Shown here one piece after another: positions 17,649 through 60,166 of a DNA stretch of 64,000 nucleotides. The translations under genes were made by a program, and so were the position numbers. The DNA is taken from positions 45,691,678 to 45,755,677 of the forward strand of contig CM049307.1 of the NCBI GenBank assembly GCA_026874595.1, in the 5' to 3' direction. The notes under the pieces are model-generated. The model ran no database searches. It was not told the DNA's origin and saw only the letters and a program-made list of their open reading frames with translations. Each line of letters begins with the position of its first letter. Position 1 is the first letter of the stretch. Source of the DNA: Sipunculus nudus. Taxonomy: Eukaryota; Annelida; Sipuncula; Golfingiida; Sipunculidae.

Positions 17649-19366
17649 GTATCCACCAAAATCAGAGAAGGACGGGTGAAGAGAGGCATTGATTGAGTGG
17701 CAAGGGGATATAGAGTTACATGTGTTAAATATTAGAATGGATCTCTGCCACATAAACATGATTGTAGGTGGCGCCACCTGTTATTTGAACGAGAAACTAT
17801 CCAAGATATATACACATATATTTCATGTGGAAAAGTCAAACCACTGCAGAGATATGAGTAATTTTATCCCACAGCAGACAAACAGATGGACACTGTGAAA
17901 AAATGGCTGCAGGTGGCGCCACCATTTTTGTTCATGTTATAAAGCTATCCAAGGGCTACATTTGTGTAAAGTTTTTTTCCTGATTGGTCAAACGGTTCCC
18001 GAGATATGAGCTTGGATGCCTGCAGCATAAACGTGAATGTAGGTGGTGCCACCTGTCATAAAATCAAGAAAGCTATCTAGGATGTATACACATGCCGAAT
18101 TTTAGGTGAATTAGTCAAACCACTGCAGAGATATGAGTGATTTTAACCCAAGGCAGATTAACAAATGGACACTGTGCAAACATGGTTGCAGGTGGCGCCA
18201 CCTTTTGTTGTGTATGTAATAAAGCTATCCCAGGGCTACATTTGTGTAAAAAATTTTTCCGGATCGGTCAAACGGTTCCTGAGATATATGGATTTATGTC
18301 TGGAGTGTTAACGTGAATGTAGGTGGCGCCACCTGTCATTAAATCAAGAAAGCTATCTAGGATGTATATGCATGCTGATTTTTAGGTGAATTAGTCAAAC
18401 CGCTGCAGAGATATGAGTGATTTTAACCCCAGGCAGATGAACAAATGGACACTGTGCAAACATGGTTGCAGGTGGCGCCACCTTTTGTTGTGTATGTAAT
18501 AAAGCTATCCCAGGGCTACATTTGTGTAAAAAATTTTTCCGGATCGGTCAAACGGTTCCCGAGATATATGGGATTATAAGTGGAGCGTTAACATGAATGT
18601 AGGTGGCACCACCTGTCCCAAAATGGAGAAAGCTATCTAGGATGTATATGCATGCCGAATTTTAGGTGAATAAGTCAAACCACTGCAGAGATATGAGTGA
18701 TTTTAACCCCAGGCAGATGAACAGATGGACACTGTGCAAACATGGTTGCAGGTGGCGCCACCTTTTGTTGTGTATGTTATAAAGCTATCCCAGGGCTACA
18801 TTTGTGTAAAATTTTTTTCCGGATCGGTCAAACGGTTCCCGAGATATATGGGATTATGTGTGGAGCATTAACGTGAATGTAGGTGGCGCCACCTGTCACA
18901 AAATCGAGAAAGCTATCTAGGATGTATATGCATGCCGAATTTTAGGTGAATTAGTCGAATCACTGCAGAGATATGAGTGATTTTAACCCAAGGCAGATTA
19001 ACAAATGGACACTGTGCAAACATGGTTGCAGGTGGCGCCACCTTTTGTTGTGTATGTTATAAAGCTTTCCCAGGGCTACATTTGTGTAAAATTTTTTTCC
19101 GGATCGGTCAAACGGTTCCCGAGATATATGGGTTTATGTGTGGAAACAGACGCACAAACGGACGCTGGGCAGAGACGAAAGGTCAGAGGTCAAGGTCACT
19201 TGGTTAGGCACCAGTTCACATGTGACCCGATAATTTGTGTAAGTTTCGGAAAAATCTGTCCAGTAGTCTCAGAGGAGTTCTCCGGAAACGAACGCGGAGG
19301 CGGCGGCGGCGGCGGCGGAACCCGGTCAAAAACATAGTATCCGCAAAACTTCGTTTTGGCGGATAC
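17649..19366. mobile_element. Non-autonomous element carrying a tandem core array
   Basis: Short inverted ends bound the array: GTATCCACCAAAA at 17649-17661 and TTTTGGCGGATAC at 19354-19366. The right end folds on itself (GTATCCGC at 19337 with GCGGATAC). A hairpin GTAGTCG/CGACTAC lies just outside the left end. Inside are about five ~280-bp units and a CGG tract (about 19290-19318). No transposase is seen. The architecture is like bivalve pearl/Helentron-type non-autonomous elements with ~150-bp core repeats. The family assignment is an inference. Confidence 0.65.
17765..19140. repeat. ~280-bp tandem array made of two diverged ~140-bp halves
   Basis: The sequence AGGTGGCGCC recurs at 17911, 18190, 18470, 18750 and 19030 (spacing 279-280) and again in the other half-unit at 17766, 18044, 18321, 18601 and 18881. 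Both halves share the frame AGGTGGCGCCACC ... AAGCTATC ... GAGATAT. GGTGGCGCCACC is a perfect palindrome, intact in eight of ten half-units. Confidence 0.92.
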
Positions 19367-23242: not shown

Positions 23243-25266
23243 GCGCCACATTCATCACTGATTATTAGACATATTACCAAATTTCCCCTGTAAAAGTTTG
23301 GACAGAAAAAAAGGGTGCTCCCAGTCACTAAGTGTATACTTTCAGCAGAGCTTTAATTAATGACTTTACCACAGATTTTGCCTCCAAAATTTAGTCCACA
23401 AGGATGAGCCCATTTTTGTGTTTATAAAACCCCCAAACTATAAATTTTAAATTTATAAAAAAAAATTTTCAATGTTTCATATTTTCCAATGATATATGTA
23501 TTCCCCTGGCTTCACACAACTGATGAAGACAACATGCAGCAAAGCAACATAAAGCATCTAACTATAATACTTATCACACATCAACCTTAAGGTAACTAAA
23601 TAAAACCAATAAAAGCTCAATAAACTAAACACAAAACAGGGACTTTTACATTTATGCCAAAATAGGGAGAGCTTTGAGACCTTTCCTGACCTGCTTGTGT
23701 AAACTGGTTGTTAACATTATGATTAATGGTAGCATTACAAATAAAGCACTATAAACCACAGTGTATTTACAGTAACATGTACCTCACACTGGTTACAGTG
23801 CCATCTGGTGCCTTTGCTATAAACTAACATTTATAACTCACTGTCATGTAATACTCTAAATCAGGACTAATACAAAGTGTTAATTGTTATAACAATTATC
23901 AGTAAAGGTTTGGCAATAAATTATTGATCAATACTGATATTTTATTTGTACAGAAAAAAATTCAGTAAATTAATGTAAAAGCAGGAAAAGTGATAACAGA
24001 TGATGTCTAAAAACAATAAAGTGAGCATTTTTGAATGAGATTTCTAGATATAATAATTATATGTTTACAATTTTGATCTGAACTCATTCTGTCAAGGATA
24101 TCAGTCTACACACAAAATTCATAAGGCCACGCCAAGAAAACTAACTGAATCACTATACCTATTTTTCAATGAATTTTTTTATTTTATGAATAAGCACTAA
24201 GTCACCGGTGCTCTTTTCTCTAATCCTTGACATATTTCATGAAAATATAATCTTCATGGATTCTATCAAACATACAAAAGTCATTGACACGCACCACTTC
24301 AAGAATTGAGGCACATTTTTTAAGGTACTCAAATTCCATAAATTTTGTTTCAAAAAATGTTCCGGCAAAAAAAATCACTCGAGCACACCGAATAGCTTAT
24401 ATTACTGTGTGGTATATAGTATCTACCACTGTCAGAGCCCTAACTTAAATGCTTTCCTTATGTTTACAGAAAAAATGAAGTTAAGATTTGCATCAAATAC
24501 AAACACCAGATGGCACTGATTGTCAAGGAACACTTTACTGTAAATACACAGCAGTTTTAAAGCACCATATTACATAAATGTGTTGATTAAAGCAAATAAT
24601 ACGTGATTATATTTCTATATTAATGGGGAATTATCTATTCATATGAATGCACATTAAAACTGGTAACTATAGTAAGGGTAGGTGATCTATATATGAGCAA
24701 GTGCTTTAAGGTTACTGCCAGTTAATTACAACATATTCTAGAAAACACGTTTTGAGCTTGCACAGGCTGAAGCAGGCTTTACTAATTAATGGTAATTGAT
24801 GAATACATAATAATTATGAATGCAACATCGAAGTTTTTTACCATTTATTCTTATCAAGAAAAAAAATACAATACAATGTGACTTATCCAATATCAAGTTA
24901 CTCTAATTCACTTTCAAATAAGAACCTGATAGGACTTTGAAAGATCATTTGGGAGGATTTGAAAGAATAATTCCAGATAATGTGTCTCTCCCATCAACAA
25001 TACATGTGTGCTTGTCATGGAAAGGTGCATCCCACCATCAAACTGTAGCACAGGTAGAGACATCTGGTGGCAAAGAAAGAAATTAATTTTCATGGGGTAG
25101 GGGACTTCAGTTGTAACAAATTCCCCAATCATGCAGAGAAATTTACGGACTACACTAACACCAGGACTATTAACCAGTCAGCCTACACATTTCAAAGAAT
25201 AATTAAATTAAAGGGCACTACCACAGTAACATGCAGGGGATGTTACAGGTGTGTTTAGTGGCTTAC

Positions 25267-25378
25267 TTTGTCTGTCCACCAGCATCACTGCACTGGCAGG
25301 GAAATATCCAGTCTTGGCCATCTGTCCCTCAGCGTTTACATATCCCCGCCATATACCGTCTGGCCTCTGCTCCAGAAC
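25267..25378 (-). CDS. CASKIN: CASKIN-like exon: C-terminal half of SH3 domain
   Basis: A 112-nt exon with acceptor TGTTTAAG and donor CAAA|GTAAGC. It reads VLEQRPDGIWRGYVNAEG then QMAKTGYFPASAVMLVDRQ, entering in phase 0 and leaving one base (A). It supplies the n-Src loop, the conserved Trp (IWRGY), the distal loop and the GYFPASAV strand of the SH3 domain begun at 36136-36230. Mammalian CASKIN has VLEQHPDGRWKG and VGYFPSSL at the same positions. The Tyr of the usual FPxxYV motif is replaced by Ala, a second missing peptide-binding aromatic. The A joins CG of the 17247-17435 exon to make Thr, or GA of the candidate microexon to make Arg. Confidence 0.95.
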
Positions 25379-25890
25379 CTTAAACAGGAAACAAACCATC
25401 GGTCACATAACAAAAGAAGGAAATACATTACTAAGGTGTCCACCCTGATTAGCATACTGAAATATATACAGAACAAACAAAGTCGTTGCAAATTTCTGGA
25501 TTACAGTGGAATTTAAAGCTACATTGTTGTATATTGACAGAGCACCTGCTGATCTATGCAAAAATGAAAATAAATCAGACAATTAGGTTTGAAAGATGAT
25601 TATGACTGATTTTGACCAATGTTAGAGGTTTAGACATCCTGGAAGGTGCTGATGATGACTCTGGTATATTTAAATGTATATTTTTATATATTTTAATATA
25701 GGCCTTATTAATTTAAAATGAAATCAGGTTATCTTTGGCTCACCAACAACTACACTGAAACCCTAATCTGTTACTGAGAGAGTCCTCATCAAATAATCAG
25801 TGAACCTGCTGTTCAAATATTCCACATGATATTTCTGAAGTTTATAAGAATAACCTCTTTGTCAATGAAATAATAAAAGTTTCTGAAGGG

Positions 25891-35800: not shown

Positions 35801-36135
35801 TCTTAAATCCAATACATCCCATGAAACAAATTAGGAGGGGTATACAAATCATACCTGAATATTTTCCACTGTTCCATTTTTCCCATGTAGAGATATTTAT
35901 TGTGATGACACTTTTAAATATAAAAAAATTATGCCTGATTAAGATTAAATTGATATCTCCGAAGACATTCTGACATTTGAATCATAAACACTTAAAGTAA
36001 TTTTTAAAGTTTTATGGACATAATTGCTCTTCAACCAGCAATGTAACATATAAAGTATCCTAGCTGGTGGTGTCACATATAAAATAGGCCCCCCCCCCCC
36101 AATGGTGTCACATAAAAAATAGTCTTTGCACTTAC

Positions 36136-36230
36136 TGTAATGTAGTCACCTTCCCTGAAGGTGAGGAAGTTCTGATCGTCTAAGTTATTGTAATCCTCTA
36201 CTGCCTGAGCATGCACGGCATAACTGGCAT
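36136..36230 (-). CDS. CASKIN: CASKIN-like exon: N-terminal half of SH3 domain
   Basis: A 95-nt exon between the acceptor TTCTTTCAG and the donor ACA|GTAAGT. With the leading G from the previous exon it reads DASYAVHAQAVEDYNN followed by LDDQNFLTFREGDYIT. This is the first beta strand, RT loop and diverging turn of an SH3 domain (AVEDY in place of the usual ALYDY, LTFREGD in place of L-F-KGD). It ends in phase 0 inside the strand after GDYIT and splices to VLEQ of the next SH3 exon. The first Tyr of the ALYDY motif is Glu here, so the usual proline-peptide surface is incomplete, as in the mammalian CASKIN SH3 domain. A C-rich homopolymer lies just downstream in the intron (36089-36100). Confidence 0.94.
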
Positions 36231-38354
36231 CTGAAAGAACAAACATAGAGTAAGTATTAGTACTCTCCATTCAAATGTCATCACTCAAATTGAGTAGTCG
36301 TCATATGCTGTGCAAAAGACACTTAACACATATTCTTGTTGTTGATGTGTTGAGCTGACTCTCCTTAGTCATACATGGATTTCCACCATTTTTGCAAGAG
36401 ACTCTGAGGAAAATTTATAACATACATGCAATACTTATATACTGATACTGATACCAACTCGGACAAGACACTGGCCCAGTTAGGCTACACACACCTGTAA
36501 TACACTGACACAGAACTGTTCATATTTCCGTCACTTTTAAGTTGTACTCTTGATCATTTTAATATACAATACTTCATATATCAACAATGGTATATCACCT
36601 CCGACAGAACATTTACATAGTAATGTTGAAGAGACTTGGAACACACTGATGTAAAACTGAATGTTATCACTGCATGCACTCTCGAGCAATCAGATACAAT
36701 TGTGAATGGATCAGACATTGACTTTGTTTTTTACAGTTTTATGATCTTTCATGCACAAAACACTGGCTCTTTTTTTAATTTTTTTTATGATCTATTCTTC
36801 ATGCAGAAGTATGGGAAATCTTAACACTTGAATTCAATACAACCATAAAGATGCAAAGAAGGTGACGGCTACTACTGAAAGTCTTTCTTAACCACAAATG
36901 CAAAGAATAGCCAAGTTTGCAGAGACATCAAGCCCCAATATAAGCTCTCACCTGAATGAACCTCACAATTTCTCAAATGGCTCGCAAATTATAACGATGA
37001 GTAAAGCCATAAATTACTACACTTAATGGAGGTCTGTAAAGATACACTTAGTTTTTATCACACAAGTCTTGGCACACTGTCAAATGATGTCATGTTGGGA
37101 TATCACTGTTGAAAGTTTTTTAACTTTCCAGGGGGTATCTTAAGTTTATGGCTTAGCTAGTTTCACACTAAAGTAACATAGAGACTACTGGTTTAAGTTC
37201 AATGTAAACTAAATCATGTTTTATACAGCACATGTGTGTTATATATGTCTGCACTGTTTACACCATAAAGATAGAGTTGTTTACCCAATAAGTACTTACC
37301 TGAACCACACTTTTTCTATATATCCAACAGACAACTCTTGCATATGCTATTATGAACATATCCTGATGCCAATATAGGTACATATAACAATTATATATCC
37401 TTCTCTGGTGCATCTACATATAAATTAACTCTATAGATATGCAGCAAATTTTACATTAAACCATTGATTAACAGGTTAACACGACCTGTGCTTAACATAC
37501 TTGCATATGTGTTATAATTATATGCACATGTCAATCAGTTCTATGAACAGAAATTTCTCTATCCAGCCATCCATGATATCTGTTACAATTTAGCTGCATA
37601 CCAACACTACTCAGTGATTTATGATTGTAAAGTCATAAGTTTTATTGTCTACAAGCCTGGATATGCAAACACACTGTACGTGCCTCATTAGGTGCAACAC
37701 TAATACAAAAACAGAGCGAATATACCATTGCCAATTCACATACCGGTAGTTTTAGTAATATGCATGAACATGAATACAAATTTCATACATAAAGAGCATT
37801 TAGTATTAATTTATTTTCTCTCTAACGTCTCCACAAAGATCCAAATTATAACAAACACTGTCCACTATGTGACTGTTTATTAATTATTTATTACTTCTGC
37901 CTTTTTCTGATGTTATTGGTTGGACCCAGCCCATACTTTAAAATAAGTACAGGAACCTGAAACATAAATGTCCTGTCGTGAGCTAGCACATTAATCATAT
38001 ACACCCTTCACAAAGACAGATTATTTCCTTATATTTGGTGCTGCAATGTTTTTTTGTAACCACAGGGTTAGTGTGATGACCTCCTATCCACATATGGAAC
38101 CAATCTGAGCCACATGTAAGAAACACTGGGATCAGAAACCACAAGGGTTGATTATACTGTGGTTTGTAGAAAAAAAATAGCCCTCAGAGGGCACTTGTAC
38201 CAACCAATGTTACATTCTTATATAAAAACCATGCATCCATACTCCTTTCATTGTGTCTTTTTCAATAATGTCACCATTATTTCTGAGGATATGTTTATGA
38301 TAATGATACTATAATACTGATATTTTATTAAGATTCTACTTTTCATATTTAGGT

Positions 38355-42556: not shown

Positions 42557-42665
42557 CTTTCAACAACTGCTTTAATTCTTTAGCTGCTCGACTCCCTGTG
42601 AACTTGTTTACAATATCCAAAGCTGTTTGGTCATAGGAGTTGGGCCGATTTACATCTGCTCCACA
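42557..42665 (-). CDS. CASKIN: CASKIN-like exon: last ankyrin repeat and cap helix
   Basis: A 109-nt exon, acceptor TTTGTAG, donor AAAG|GTATGT. It enters in phase 0 and reads [20 protein letters not shown], then [16 protein letters not shown], and leaves one base (G). The N-terminal part completes the LLLE-CGADVN turn of the previous exon. [10 protein letters not shown] is a final ankyrin helix and KELKQLLK is the cap helix before the SH3 domain. The mammalian family has the same arrangement, with TYSQTALDIV and KEIKQLLR. The single leftover G joins AT of the next exon to give Asp. Confidence 0.94.
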
Positions 42666-47361: not shown

Positions 47362-47460
47362 AGTAATCTGCATGGAGGCTAGGCCAGAAAGTTATTCCTA
47401 ATCTGCTTGGAGGCTAGGGCAGAAGTGAGTGAATTTATAATCTGCAGGGAGGCTAGCTAG
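47362..47460. repeat. Three-copy short repeat
   Basis: TAATCTGCATGGAGGCTAG, TAATCTGCTTGGAGGCTAG and TAATCTGCAGGGAGGCTAG occur at spacings of about 35-50 bp. Confidence 0.6.
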
Positions 47461-52772: not shown

Positions 52773-53238
52773 CTGATACAGATAGCAGAACTGGCCCACT
52801 GTCATGGCCCGTTTCTTCTGGAGTTCTTGGACAAACAAACATACAGACAGGACAATTTTTGTAGTTTATAGATTCATCACTGATTTTCGGCTATGATAAA
52901 ACATAAAACATATTTATCTTCAAAGGGAAACCTGTTTGAAAGACCACCTATCTAATAAGACCACCGGTGCAAAAAGACCACTTTTTTAAGGTCCCTCAGG
53001 TAATCTTATAAAACAGGTATCACTTACTGTATACATCAAGTGAAGATATCTCAGTGTAATCACAATCTAACTCCCACCTTAATCTTAGCCACATGTGGAA
53101 AATGTTAACTCAATTATATGATAGGCACATGGTTTCAACCTTTCAAGATCTTTAACAGAAAGTATGGGAAACACTTTTGGGGAATAACAATAGATAGGAA
53201 TGAATTTATCGGACCTCAGAGTATGGTTGATGACTTAC

Positions 53239-53322
53239 CTCCATTAATAATTGTACAACATCTAATTTTTCATGACTTACCTCCAGTAATAATCGAACAA
53301 CATCTAATTTTCCATACAAGGC
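53239..53322 (-). repeat. 42-bp tandem duplication of exon 3' end plus splice donor
   Basis: The last ~35 nt of the ankyrin exon and its donor (GGAG|GTAAGTCAT) recur exactly 42 nt downstream. The second copy, 53239-53280, differs at about 4 positions over the clearly matching part. Because 42 is a multiple of 3 and the copy has no stop, use of the second donor would add 14 residues ([14 protein letters not shown]) without changing frame. The copy repeats the KLDVV-LL-E ankyrin helix. Two identical GTAAGT donors therefore compete. Seen directly; use in mRNA is inference. Confidence 0.85.
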
Positions 53323-53389
53323 AGCTTCATGTAAACATGTACCCTGAGCAGTCTGTAGGTTGATGCTAACACCCGCTTGTAAAAGTAAC
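53281..53389 (-). CDS. CASKIN: CASKIN-like exon: ankyrin repeat segment with duplicated donor
   Basis: This 109-nt exon lies between an acceptor TTGTTGCAG and the donor CTGGAG|GTAAGT. It begins with one base that completes Arg, then 36 codons reading [15 protein letters not shown] and [21 protein letters not shown]. It holds the second helix of one ankyrin repeat, the beta-hairpin turn, and the LHEAALYGK helix pair of the next. Mammalian CASKIN has the closely similar order LLLQAG-IN-QT-GTALHEAALCGK-VVRLLL. It ends in phase 0 and joins CGADVN of the next exon. Its 3' end and splice donor are duplicated in tandem just downstream (53239-53280), giving a second in-frame donor 42 nt further on. 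The exon itself is intact. Confidence 0.94.
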
Positions 53390-56300
53390 CTGCAACAAAC
53401 ATAACATAAATATTACACATACTATACCACACCATTATAATGTGGCTGTTACTATAGTCGGGGTTTGGAGGGTTGGAAAGTTTAAGCATTCAATATGTAC
53501 TTAGTATTTTGTTCATGTGTTTAATGGTAGGAGGATATGCGTTCATTCCAATTCTTGTATGCGTTCATTCACAAAACATCCTGCAATCAAGGAAGGAATC
53601 TCATGAAATTTTCAGCACATTTTCCGTAATGAGTCTATGAAGAATCTTTTTGATTTTGGTGTGGATCTGGTACATGATCAAGATTCAGGAATGGCATTAA
53701 GGAATTTTCACAAAAACAGTCACTTAATGAACCTCGGAATATTGGCTGGATAAGTGAATGTTAACACCATCCCACGGACCCCCACATGGCAGAGGCCTGC
53801 ATTGCTTAGTATGTTTATTAATATTACATAAATTTACCTTTCGAGTTGGAATATTTGAAACCAGACAGCTTTCAATTCTCTGAGAAAATAAAGCATTTTC
53901 CAGACCTTGACAAACCCAGATTTCCTCCCCTAGATTTTCCAAGTTCTCCAGACACAACCATTCAGCAATAAAGAAATCTCTGCACTTAAGCTAAGATTCT
54001 GTTAACCCTAGTCAGAGACTGGAACTAACAGGGAGACCTGCCTCATAATTCACATGGTCAAGGCCAGCTCCCCCATCTGATCTTACACTGCGTGGTACAG
54101 TGGTACCGTCAAAAGCTACATCTAGGCCCAGAATCCTTGCCAAACTCATAACAATGTCTATGACCCTGTCCAGATTCCTTGCCAAATTTCTTCAGCTGGC
54201 ATTGAAAAAGCACCTTCAACAAACTATTCACTTCATGTTTGTGATAACTTTTAAGTTACAGGCCTAAGAAATACCTGCTGTTTACCCGAAGTGTGGAGAA
54301 TAATGCCTAATGTTTTCTAAGTGTTCATTTTCCATAATTTCTCATAAACCCTGTAGAATTTGACATTATTTAATGAAAGGACTATCACTGCAGCATCTAT
54401 CAGACGCTTTGGCAGTGTATCCAGCTGAGCCCATGAAAACCATGCCAGGTTTTAACTTAGTCCATGGAAAACCTTTACCAGACAGATTTGTGCTGATTTT
54501 TCCAATGTAAGATCAGGTAATATACTAGTGTCAATAAAAAAATTTGAAAACTGTCTGGGTGGAATTACAAAATCTTTCTCTGACCGCAGTCAATCTTTCA
54601 CATCAAATTATTTTCTATATCATCTGAATGTATATTACCATTCATTAAAGAGAGAGAGAATTAAAATGTTTTTGAAATCTTAAGAAGACTTCTGGATTTA
54701 CCTTGTTATACTGAAGCTTCAAAGTACAAATGTATAGATTTGTGGCTTGCTTGCCTTTCCTGATATTAGCAAGAATGAACATTTCTTTCAACTTGACAAG
54801 AACACTTTTGGGAATGTCAAGGTGAAATGCAATTGCCATCAGGCAGTGGGTGGGTCAACTTCACACCATGTGGATGCTTGAATGCAAAATTAGACTTTAA
54901 TAAAAGCCCAGACAAGGAATGTTGATTGGCCAGACTCCTCCACCCTCCAGAACAGAAGAGCCCTTCCATAACCATCGCCCACTCTGTGAACCCGAGATTT
55001 TATAACTGAACATAAGCACCGTCAAACATTAATCTGTTCCTTCAGACGTATCATGTCAGCAGTGGTATCAGTTTACTGTCACTGCACTTGATTCACTGTT
55101 TAAAGTCTTTCTCAGATTACATTAAATAAAACAGTTGACATGTTTTTTTTACCTAGACGACAGCTTCATTATTTAAGGCCTTAACCAGGTTTATTTAAAA
55201 CTCTCTCAAATTACATTAACTGGAACTCTCTAATGATTTATCTCTGGCTGACAGATGGAAATTATGAACTTCAGATGACAAAACCATATCCTTGACAAGA
55301 GGCTGTATGTGAAATAGCTTTTAAATAATACAATTATAGAAGTAATAAACTAATTAAATTGTAGTATGTGGGAAATAATGTACTGTCAAAGAATTTGGTG
55401 TTCAAATTTGAAGATATTTAGTTCAGTACCCACTACTTCCATCAAGGCAAGTAAGATTTAAAGAGCTTTAACTTTTAAATTGAAATGTCTTCACAACATT
55501 TACCTCATTATACCTCAATCAGCCAGGATGAATGATGCTTTTATTGCTGTTGGTTGGTTGGCTGATTGCATGGTTGGTTGTTTAGTTACTTGGTTGCTTC
55601 AATGAGCTATCCGTTAGCTACCTTATTCAAAAAGCTTTGAATGGATATGTTAAAATTTTATGGATGGTTAAGGAACAATCCAATAAGTTTTGGAGGAAAT
55701 CTGAATCACTATAATAATGGTTTTTTATAAAGAATACTTTTACAATTTAAATTTGTGTGAGAGACACATCCTTCAATACATATAATTATCTTCATCCTTA
55801 CTGAATAAACAGACCCAACAACCGGCCGTGGTTCTACATGCTAAAAAAAAAACAAATTAAATGATCTGCCAGCTGCCTATTTAAACACTGGTTCCCAGAC
55901 ATACAAAATTTGAAGAACAGGGGAACTGGGGTTCAAAGGACAGTAATAGACAGGTAATTGTAACTATCATGTTACGCAGCCTACTTTTCTATAATTCAAG
56001 TTCTTTAGCCGGAGGCGGCTGACCCGAAAAGGCAGCATACACAATATCGTGTGAACTATGCATGCGTGAACTTGGGCGACTAATAATAAAGATAAGAAAC
56101 AACTACATGACAGGCCTGTTATTTCTTATGACTATGTCAAAGTTGCCTACAGCAAGTCACTTCAGCCGATAGTAAAGTTAAATACAATGAATAGGCTGGC
56201 CTCTACTCATAAATCTGTAACATGACACAGTGGAAATATTTATATATATATATTTATCGTGATACCACCCACAGACATAAGTAAGAGAGTCATACATATT

Positions 56301-57072: not shown

Positions 57073-57241
57073 TGAGAGGACTGATATGATAATCAATGGC
57101 CCTGACAAGAAATGATATGATTACTGATGGCTCTGACAAGAAATAATATGATTATTGATGGCTCTGACAAGAAATAATACGATTACTGATGGCTCTGACA
57201 GGAATTAATGATTATTGATCGCTCTGACAAGAAATGATATA
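57073..57241. repeat. 31-bp minisatellite, about five copies
   Basis: CTGACAAGAAATAATATGAT followed by TATTGATGGCT repeats with spacing 31, 31, 31 and 29 (CTGACA at 57102, 57133, 57164, 57195, 57224). It abuts the SINE-like element. Confidence 0.88.
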
Positions 57242-60038: not shown

Positions 60039-60166
60039 CTGATTATGTCACTGTGACCGTTCTTGGCAGCTAAATGCAGGCAGCTTGTGCGACCATTGTC
60101 TAATAAGTTTCGACTGTCCGTCAGGAGTGCACCACAGCGATCTGTCTGTACCAGGAGTTCCACCAC
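60039..60166 (-). CDS. CASKIN: CASKIN-like exon: ankyrin repeat segment
   Basis: This 128-nt exon starts after an acceptor ending CTTCAG and ends at ATCAG|GTAAAT. It reads VVELLVQTDRCGALLTDS, then a short linker, then TSCLHLAAKNGHSDIIR, entering in phase 0 and leaving with two bases of an Arg codon. The first part closes one ankyrin repeat (second helix, VVELL). The insertion around GALLTDSRNLL is typical of CASKIN at this place. The second part is the start of the next repeat, with the T/S-x-LHLAA-NGH core. Mammalian CASKIN has the same segment order and almost the same LHLAAKNGH-DIIR ending. It follows on directly to the exon at 53281-53389 (AG|G gives Arg). Earlier ankyrin exons must lie upstream of 64000; I found none in 60167-64000. 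Confidence 0.93.

Follow-up and report, generated by a model that had tools for sequence, protein, structure and literature searches.

A 42-bp tandem duplication sets two identical 5' splice sites at the end of a Caskin ankyrin exon in Sipunculus nudus

Two identical 5' splice sites (donors) lie 42 nt apart at the end of one ankyrin exon in the window, the 64-kb stretch of Sipunculus nudus DNA that was analysed here. The locus raises the question of which donor is used, and whether the stretch between the two becomes part of a protein. A preliminary description had seen in it the recent origin of an alternative 5' splice site, lengthening an ankyrin repeat in a synaptic scaffold.

The gene and its exons

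Exon ends were set by splice consensus and reading frame. The exons and domain pieces of the gene were located as follows.

60039..60166, minus strand: preceding ankyrin exon, with a length of 128 nt when spliced at the TTCAG acceptor before 60166
53389-53281, minus strand: ankyrin exon ending at donor 1, 109 nt (1 base of a split codon and 36 codons)
53389-53239, minus strand: the same exon ending at donor 2, 151 nt
42665-42557, minus strand: next exon, 109 nt, which begins CGADVN and completes the ankyrin repeat
36076..36270, minus strand: first SH3 exon, an open frame with exon ends not fixed
25211..25402, minus strand: second SH3 exon, an open frame with exon ends not fixed
L005:6140-7098, minus strand, about 23-24 kb past the low end of the window: tandem SAM pieces in two open frames

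The ankyrin exon with the two donors is preceded directly by the acceptor TTGCAG before base 53389. The intron in front of it measures 6649 nt and the one behind it 10,615 nt from donor 1 or 10,573 nt from donor 2. Splice consensus and frame (CGADVN...) agree on 42665 as the start of the next exon, where it had been placed before.

The gene is a Caskin; the window holds ankyrin and SH3 exons of it, and the SAM pieces lie beyond. The ankyrin block was recognized with a spliced three-exon piece, which matched Pfam ankyrin families (e.g. Ank_4, 5.4e-20). A PDB search with the same piece does not identify the gene, because none of the best 60 of its 459 matches was named Caskin; they were mostly designed ankyrins and ankyrin-1/2. 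The SH3 domain after the ankyrin block is of the Caskin type, with Caskin-2 (9.4e-12) and Caskin-1 (7.8e-10) as the best PDB matches and the next one at 2.5e-5. The top four of 7 matches to the first SAM piece, and all 4 to the second, were Caskin-1 or Caskin-2. It is these SH3 and SAM matches that identify the gene. The family carries ankyrin repeats, SH3 and two SAM domains in that order, and the same order was found here; what may set this gene apart is that one of its ankyrin exons ends in a duplicated donor. The N-terminal ankyrin repeats were not found when the adjoining 30 kb upstream were scanned for their signature. Mammalian Caskins are described in the available text as neuronal, synaptic scaffolds, and CASKIN2 as lacking the CASK-interaction region (PMC4994250).

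When the ankyrin piece was compared with the assembly, giving at least 172 matches from 150 of 830 candidates scored, the three best were the three ankyrin exons of the window and the others listed were at most 52% identical. This is apparently, among the matches listed, the only Caskin gene with these exons in the 1.43-Gb genome. Ankyrin matches of equal score and frame length also recurred on five contigs of the assembly G000 (C61, C62, C83, C89 and C90), one example scoring 49 bits in a frame of 352 residues; an ankyrin gene that multiplied recently, or stretches duplicated in the assembly, may lie behind this. Between the SH3 exons and the SAM pieces the Caskin span holds a tandem repeat at 17834-19144 (280-bp unit, 4.7 copies, 91% matches).

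Two donors from one duplication

The duplication and the donors that it carries are given below, the slash marking the splice point.

53315-53274, minus strand: copy 1, with 35 exonic and 7 intronic bases as counted by donor 1
53273-53232, minus strand: copy 2, 38 of 42 positions identical to copy 1
53272..53283, minus strand: donor 1, GAG/GTAAGTCAT, U1 duplex -10.7 kcal/mol
53230..53241, minus strand: donor 2, GAG/GTAAGTCAT, U1 duplex -10.7 kcal/mol
53280-53239, minus strand: stretch between the donors, 42 nt, exonic only upon use of donor 2

The 3' end of the exon and its donor are indeed repeated 42 bp downstream, as had been described: the unit of 42 bp occurs in two head-to-tail copies with a period of exactly 42. 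Tandem Repeats Finder reported it at 53230-53315 with 2.0 copies and a score of 144, so the repeat is not a chance match. The boundary of copy 1 can slide by 2, and the copied stretch thus takes in 33-35 bases from the end of the exon and 7-9 from the start of the intron. The interval originally given (53239..53322) is correct within the repeat, but its seven bases at 53316-53322 lie outside. The sequence GAGGTAAGT has no further occurrence on either strand of the 64-kb window. The unit begins with AT, and AT also follows copy 2 directly, a 2-bp microhomology; a single duplication through slippage or end joining at this match is probably the origin.

The two donors share every letter from -5 to +9 (TGGAG/GTAAGTCAT), which bears out the identity claimed for them, and no other GT site from 53450 to 52900 matches them in strength. 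The flanking exons have donors with weaker U1 duplexes (-8.3 and -7.9 kcal/mol); that of the preceding exon is CAG/GTAAAT at 60039.

An assembly error had been named as a finding that would overturn the duplication. The duplication comes from a single assembly, and it could in principle be such an error or a private allele of the sequenced individual. The error is unlikely because a doubled stretch would be expected to be identical, and the copies differ at four of 42 sites. A 301-bp query across the locus gave one match, at 100%, in the 1.43-Gb assembly of 153 contigs, and the locus sits on a contig of 98.5 Mb. A private allele is likewise unlikely, as the divergence of 10% speaks against it. 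Artefact and private allele together can be set aside almost entirely.

The four differences in 42 positions correspond to a Jukes-Cantor divergence of 0.10, with a 95% interval of 2.7-22.6% on the raw value. The duplication is thus not young enough for identical copies. Its recent origin is neither supported nor refuted by this divergence.

Zhuo et al. reportedly described, in 2007, how short tandem duplications reshape exon-intron structure, and the duplication found here is a further instance of this already known process. It spans the exon end with its donor and leaves both donors intact, as is expected of an alternative 5' site made by duplication. In the available text on short tandem duplications that alter exon-intron structure (PMC2812944, PMC2891723), splice signals are copied and in-frame variants are possible if the length is a multiple of three, both as here. 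The present duplication differs in that it straddles an existing donor, so that a new intron is not needed. A published acceptor-side case, as far as its available text goes, also has a tandem duplication that crosses an exon-intron boundary; that case gained a new intron, whereas the present one is on the donor side and has no plausible acceptor. A literature search limited to titles and the starts of abstracts found no case of this locus, and absence from print is not claimed.

Other small repeats were seen in the flanking introns. Two exact 13-bp copies of TATGCGTTCATTC lie at 53536-53570, 22 bp from start to start and some 150 bp ahead of the ankyrin exon, perhaps another small duplication nearby. 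A 31-bp unit is repeated 5.2 times at 57082-57240 (84% matches) in the intron before the ankyrin exon, and a 35-bp unit 2.5 times at 47364-47456 in the intron after the duplicated donor.

The insert encoded between the donors

Use of donor 2 would add 14 residues in frame and without a stop, as had been stated. The first three of them (VSH) come from former intron and the copied exonic part gives the other 11 codons. The described likeness to a helix also held, the second half of the insert repeating the second helix of the ankyrin repeat. The 14 residues would enter after this second helix, just before the CGADVN loop. The long form could carry them as an extension, or copy 2 could take the place of copy 1 in the fold.

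The four differences between the copies fall on codon positions 2, 3, 2 and 1. Three of them alter a residue (G/E, R/Q and L/M) and the fourth, in a valine codon, is silent, in agreement with the earlier count. Judged by ankyrin alignments, copy 1 keeps the ankyrin-like G and L and copy 2 departs with E and M, the E standing in place of the turn glycine. The R of copy 1 is presumably also the ankyrin-like residue and the Q of copy 2 the departure.

The donor 1 exon joined to the exon at 42665 gives a complete canonical ankyrin repeat. The 50-residue exon of the long form alone still matched Pfam Ank (1.3e-6). Of the six Pfam models that listed both forms, four gave the short one the higher score (Ank_4, 71.5 vs 60.2; Ank, 66.9 vs 64.8; Ank_5, 64.1 vs 60.9; Ank_3, 54 vs 51.7). 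In the other two the long form was slightly ahead (Ank_2, 59.9 vs 59.1; Ank_KRIT1, 29 vs 27.5, a match below the cut-off of that model). AlphaFold, run on one sequence with the 50-residue long exon alone, predicted one continuous helix in which the ankyrin turn was not kept; the best model had a pLDDT of 73.9 and a pTM of 0.41, and the other four had a pLDDT of 50-63. We give this prediction no weight. Viral contigs were also scanned with the long exon. One locus (L001) was found, an ankyrin gene with 49% identity across residues 1-36, and it was taken as unrelated because its frame passes the insert position without anything similar.

We simulated neutral decay of the copy with four random substitutions, scoring the nine donor bases and the openness of the insert in 200,000 draws. 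The donor was kept in 36.5% of draws (exact probability 0.366), the frame in 78.4% and both in 27.8%; the simulation had no indels, and the true value for both would be somewhat lower. Among the survivors three residue changes occurred in 36% and four in 10%. The three changes observed are thus an ordinary outcome of drift, because three or more have a probability of 0.46 given survival. Copy 2 carries no sign of protein constraint, with four differences being too few to prove its absence.

Competition between the donors

Published work on competing donors gives an expectation for this exon. The available text of PMC9225289 describes five minigenes whose exon-defined internal exon carried a pair of identical strong donors (CAG/guaagu), and in all five the upstream donor was used exclusively. 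According to the same text, human near-equal donors between long introns prefer the upstream site (725 such events), and shorter exons are favoured in human transcript data. About 60% of all counted human alternative 5' events are given there as preferring the downstream donor, and the introduction recalls the older rule of Reed and Maniatis, by which proximity to the intron, where it is decisive, gives the advantage to the downstream donor. All of these data are from human cells, not from this animal. With 109 or 151 nt between long introns, the present exon fits the exon-definition class, and by analogy donor 1 is predicted to be used and to give the canonical protein, with donor 2 silent or of minor use.

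On balance we favour a single duplication after which donor 1 makes the normal protein and donor 2 stays unused or yields a minor by-product. Slippage or end joining would have copied the end of the Caskin ankyrin exon with the start of the intron, so that the transcript now carries a pair of strong, identical donors separated by 42 nt. For a short exon between long introns, exon definition, which we infer for this species, would favour the site nearer to the upstream acceptor. Donor 1 would then give an ordinary, uninterrupted ankyrin repeat, and copy 2 would be mostly intronic and drifting, its donor silent or the source of a minor in-frame isoform. Against this reading stand the older proximity rule and the downstream preference among human events, the human origin of the minigene and transcript data, the two Pfam models that slightly favour the long form, the somewhat more open predicted pairing of donor 2, and the survival of both the frame and donor 2 through about 10% divergence.

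In the opposite reading donor 2 is used regularly, alternatively or even mostly, as a young alternative 5' site that gives a Caskin isoform with a copy of the second helix. Donor 2 is undamaged and matches donor 1 in strength, the insert has a length divisible by three and has gained no stop through four substitutions, and an intron-proximal donor would win an intron-defined competition as described in the available text of PMC9225289. On the other hand, donor and frame are retained together by chance in more than a quarter of the simulated copies, purifying selection is not visible, the ankyrin turn glycine has become glutamate, and in the comparable minigenes the upstream donor was exclusive. 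We consider regular use of donor 2 rather unlikely. Slightly more doubtful still is the stronger version, that the duplication made a working, regulated 5' site and with it a neural Caskin isoform that has a doubled helix with one copy diverging. A long isoform through donor 2 is possible, with the balance tipped against it by the closest published experiment. Of the alternative 5' site first proposed, the duplicated donor, the frame, the equal strength and the Caskin scaffold thus stand, but the use of donor 2 is only possible.

Two further readings would leave the protein unchanged or assign donor 2 another role. Intronic U1 sites can take part in exon recognition or guard long introns. Donor 2, with its strong U1 complementarity just inside the long intron, could be such an extra binding site, strengthening recognition of the exon or guarding the start of the 10.6-kb intron; this we regard as quite improbable. 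Alternatively, the stretch of 42 nt could be spliced out as a miniature intron, a zero-length exon in a recursive step that rebuilds GAG/GTAAGT and leaves the mRNA unchanged. The stretch at 53280-53239 (minus strand) does open with GT and close with AG directly before GTAAGT. For an animal intron 42 nt would be a very small size, which counts against this reading, and the AG at 53239 has no preceding pyrimidine tract (ACAATTATTAATGGAG). AG/GT is duplicated as in the model of intron gain by AGGT duplication, in the available text of PMC4974935. By eye, the pyrimidine run that this model places before the second GT is absent from ACAATTATTAATGGAG, and with it a usable acceptor. We consider the zero-length exon very improbable.

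If both donors are used, the locus would be a natural minigene with two identical donors and the frame kept, in which site order is nearly the sole difference. The preference seen under exon definition could then be tested in another animal, and the long form would reveal how a repeat fold copes with a second copy of a helix. Should donor 2 be silent, the locus illustrates how a consensus donor can go unused next to a genuine one.

We also considered and rejected a special RNA fold that would conceal one of the donors, as the 191-nt region proved less stable than the great majority of its shuffled versions (at least as stable in 189 of 200, z 1.55). In the predicted pairing donor 2 was slightly more open than donor 1, with a mean unpaired probability of 0.48 vs 0.34.
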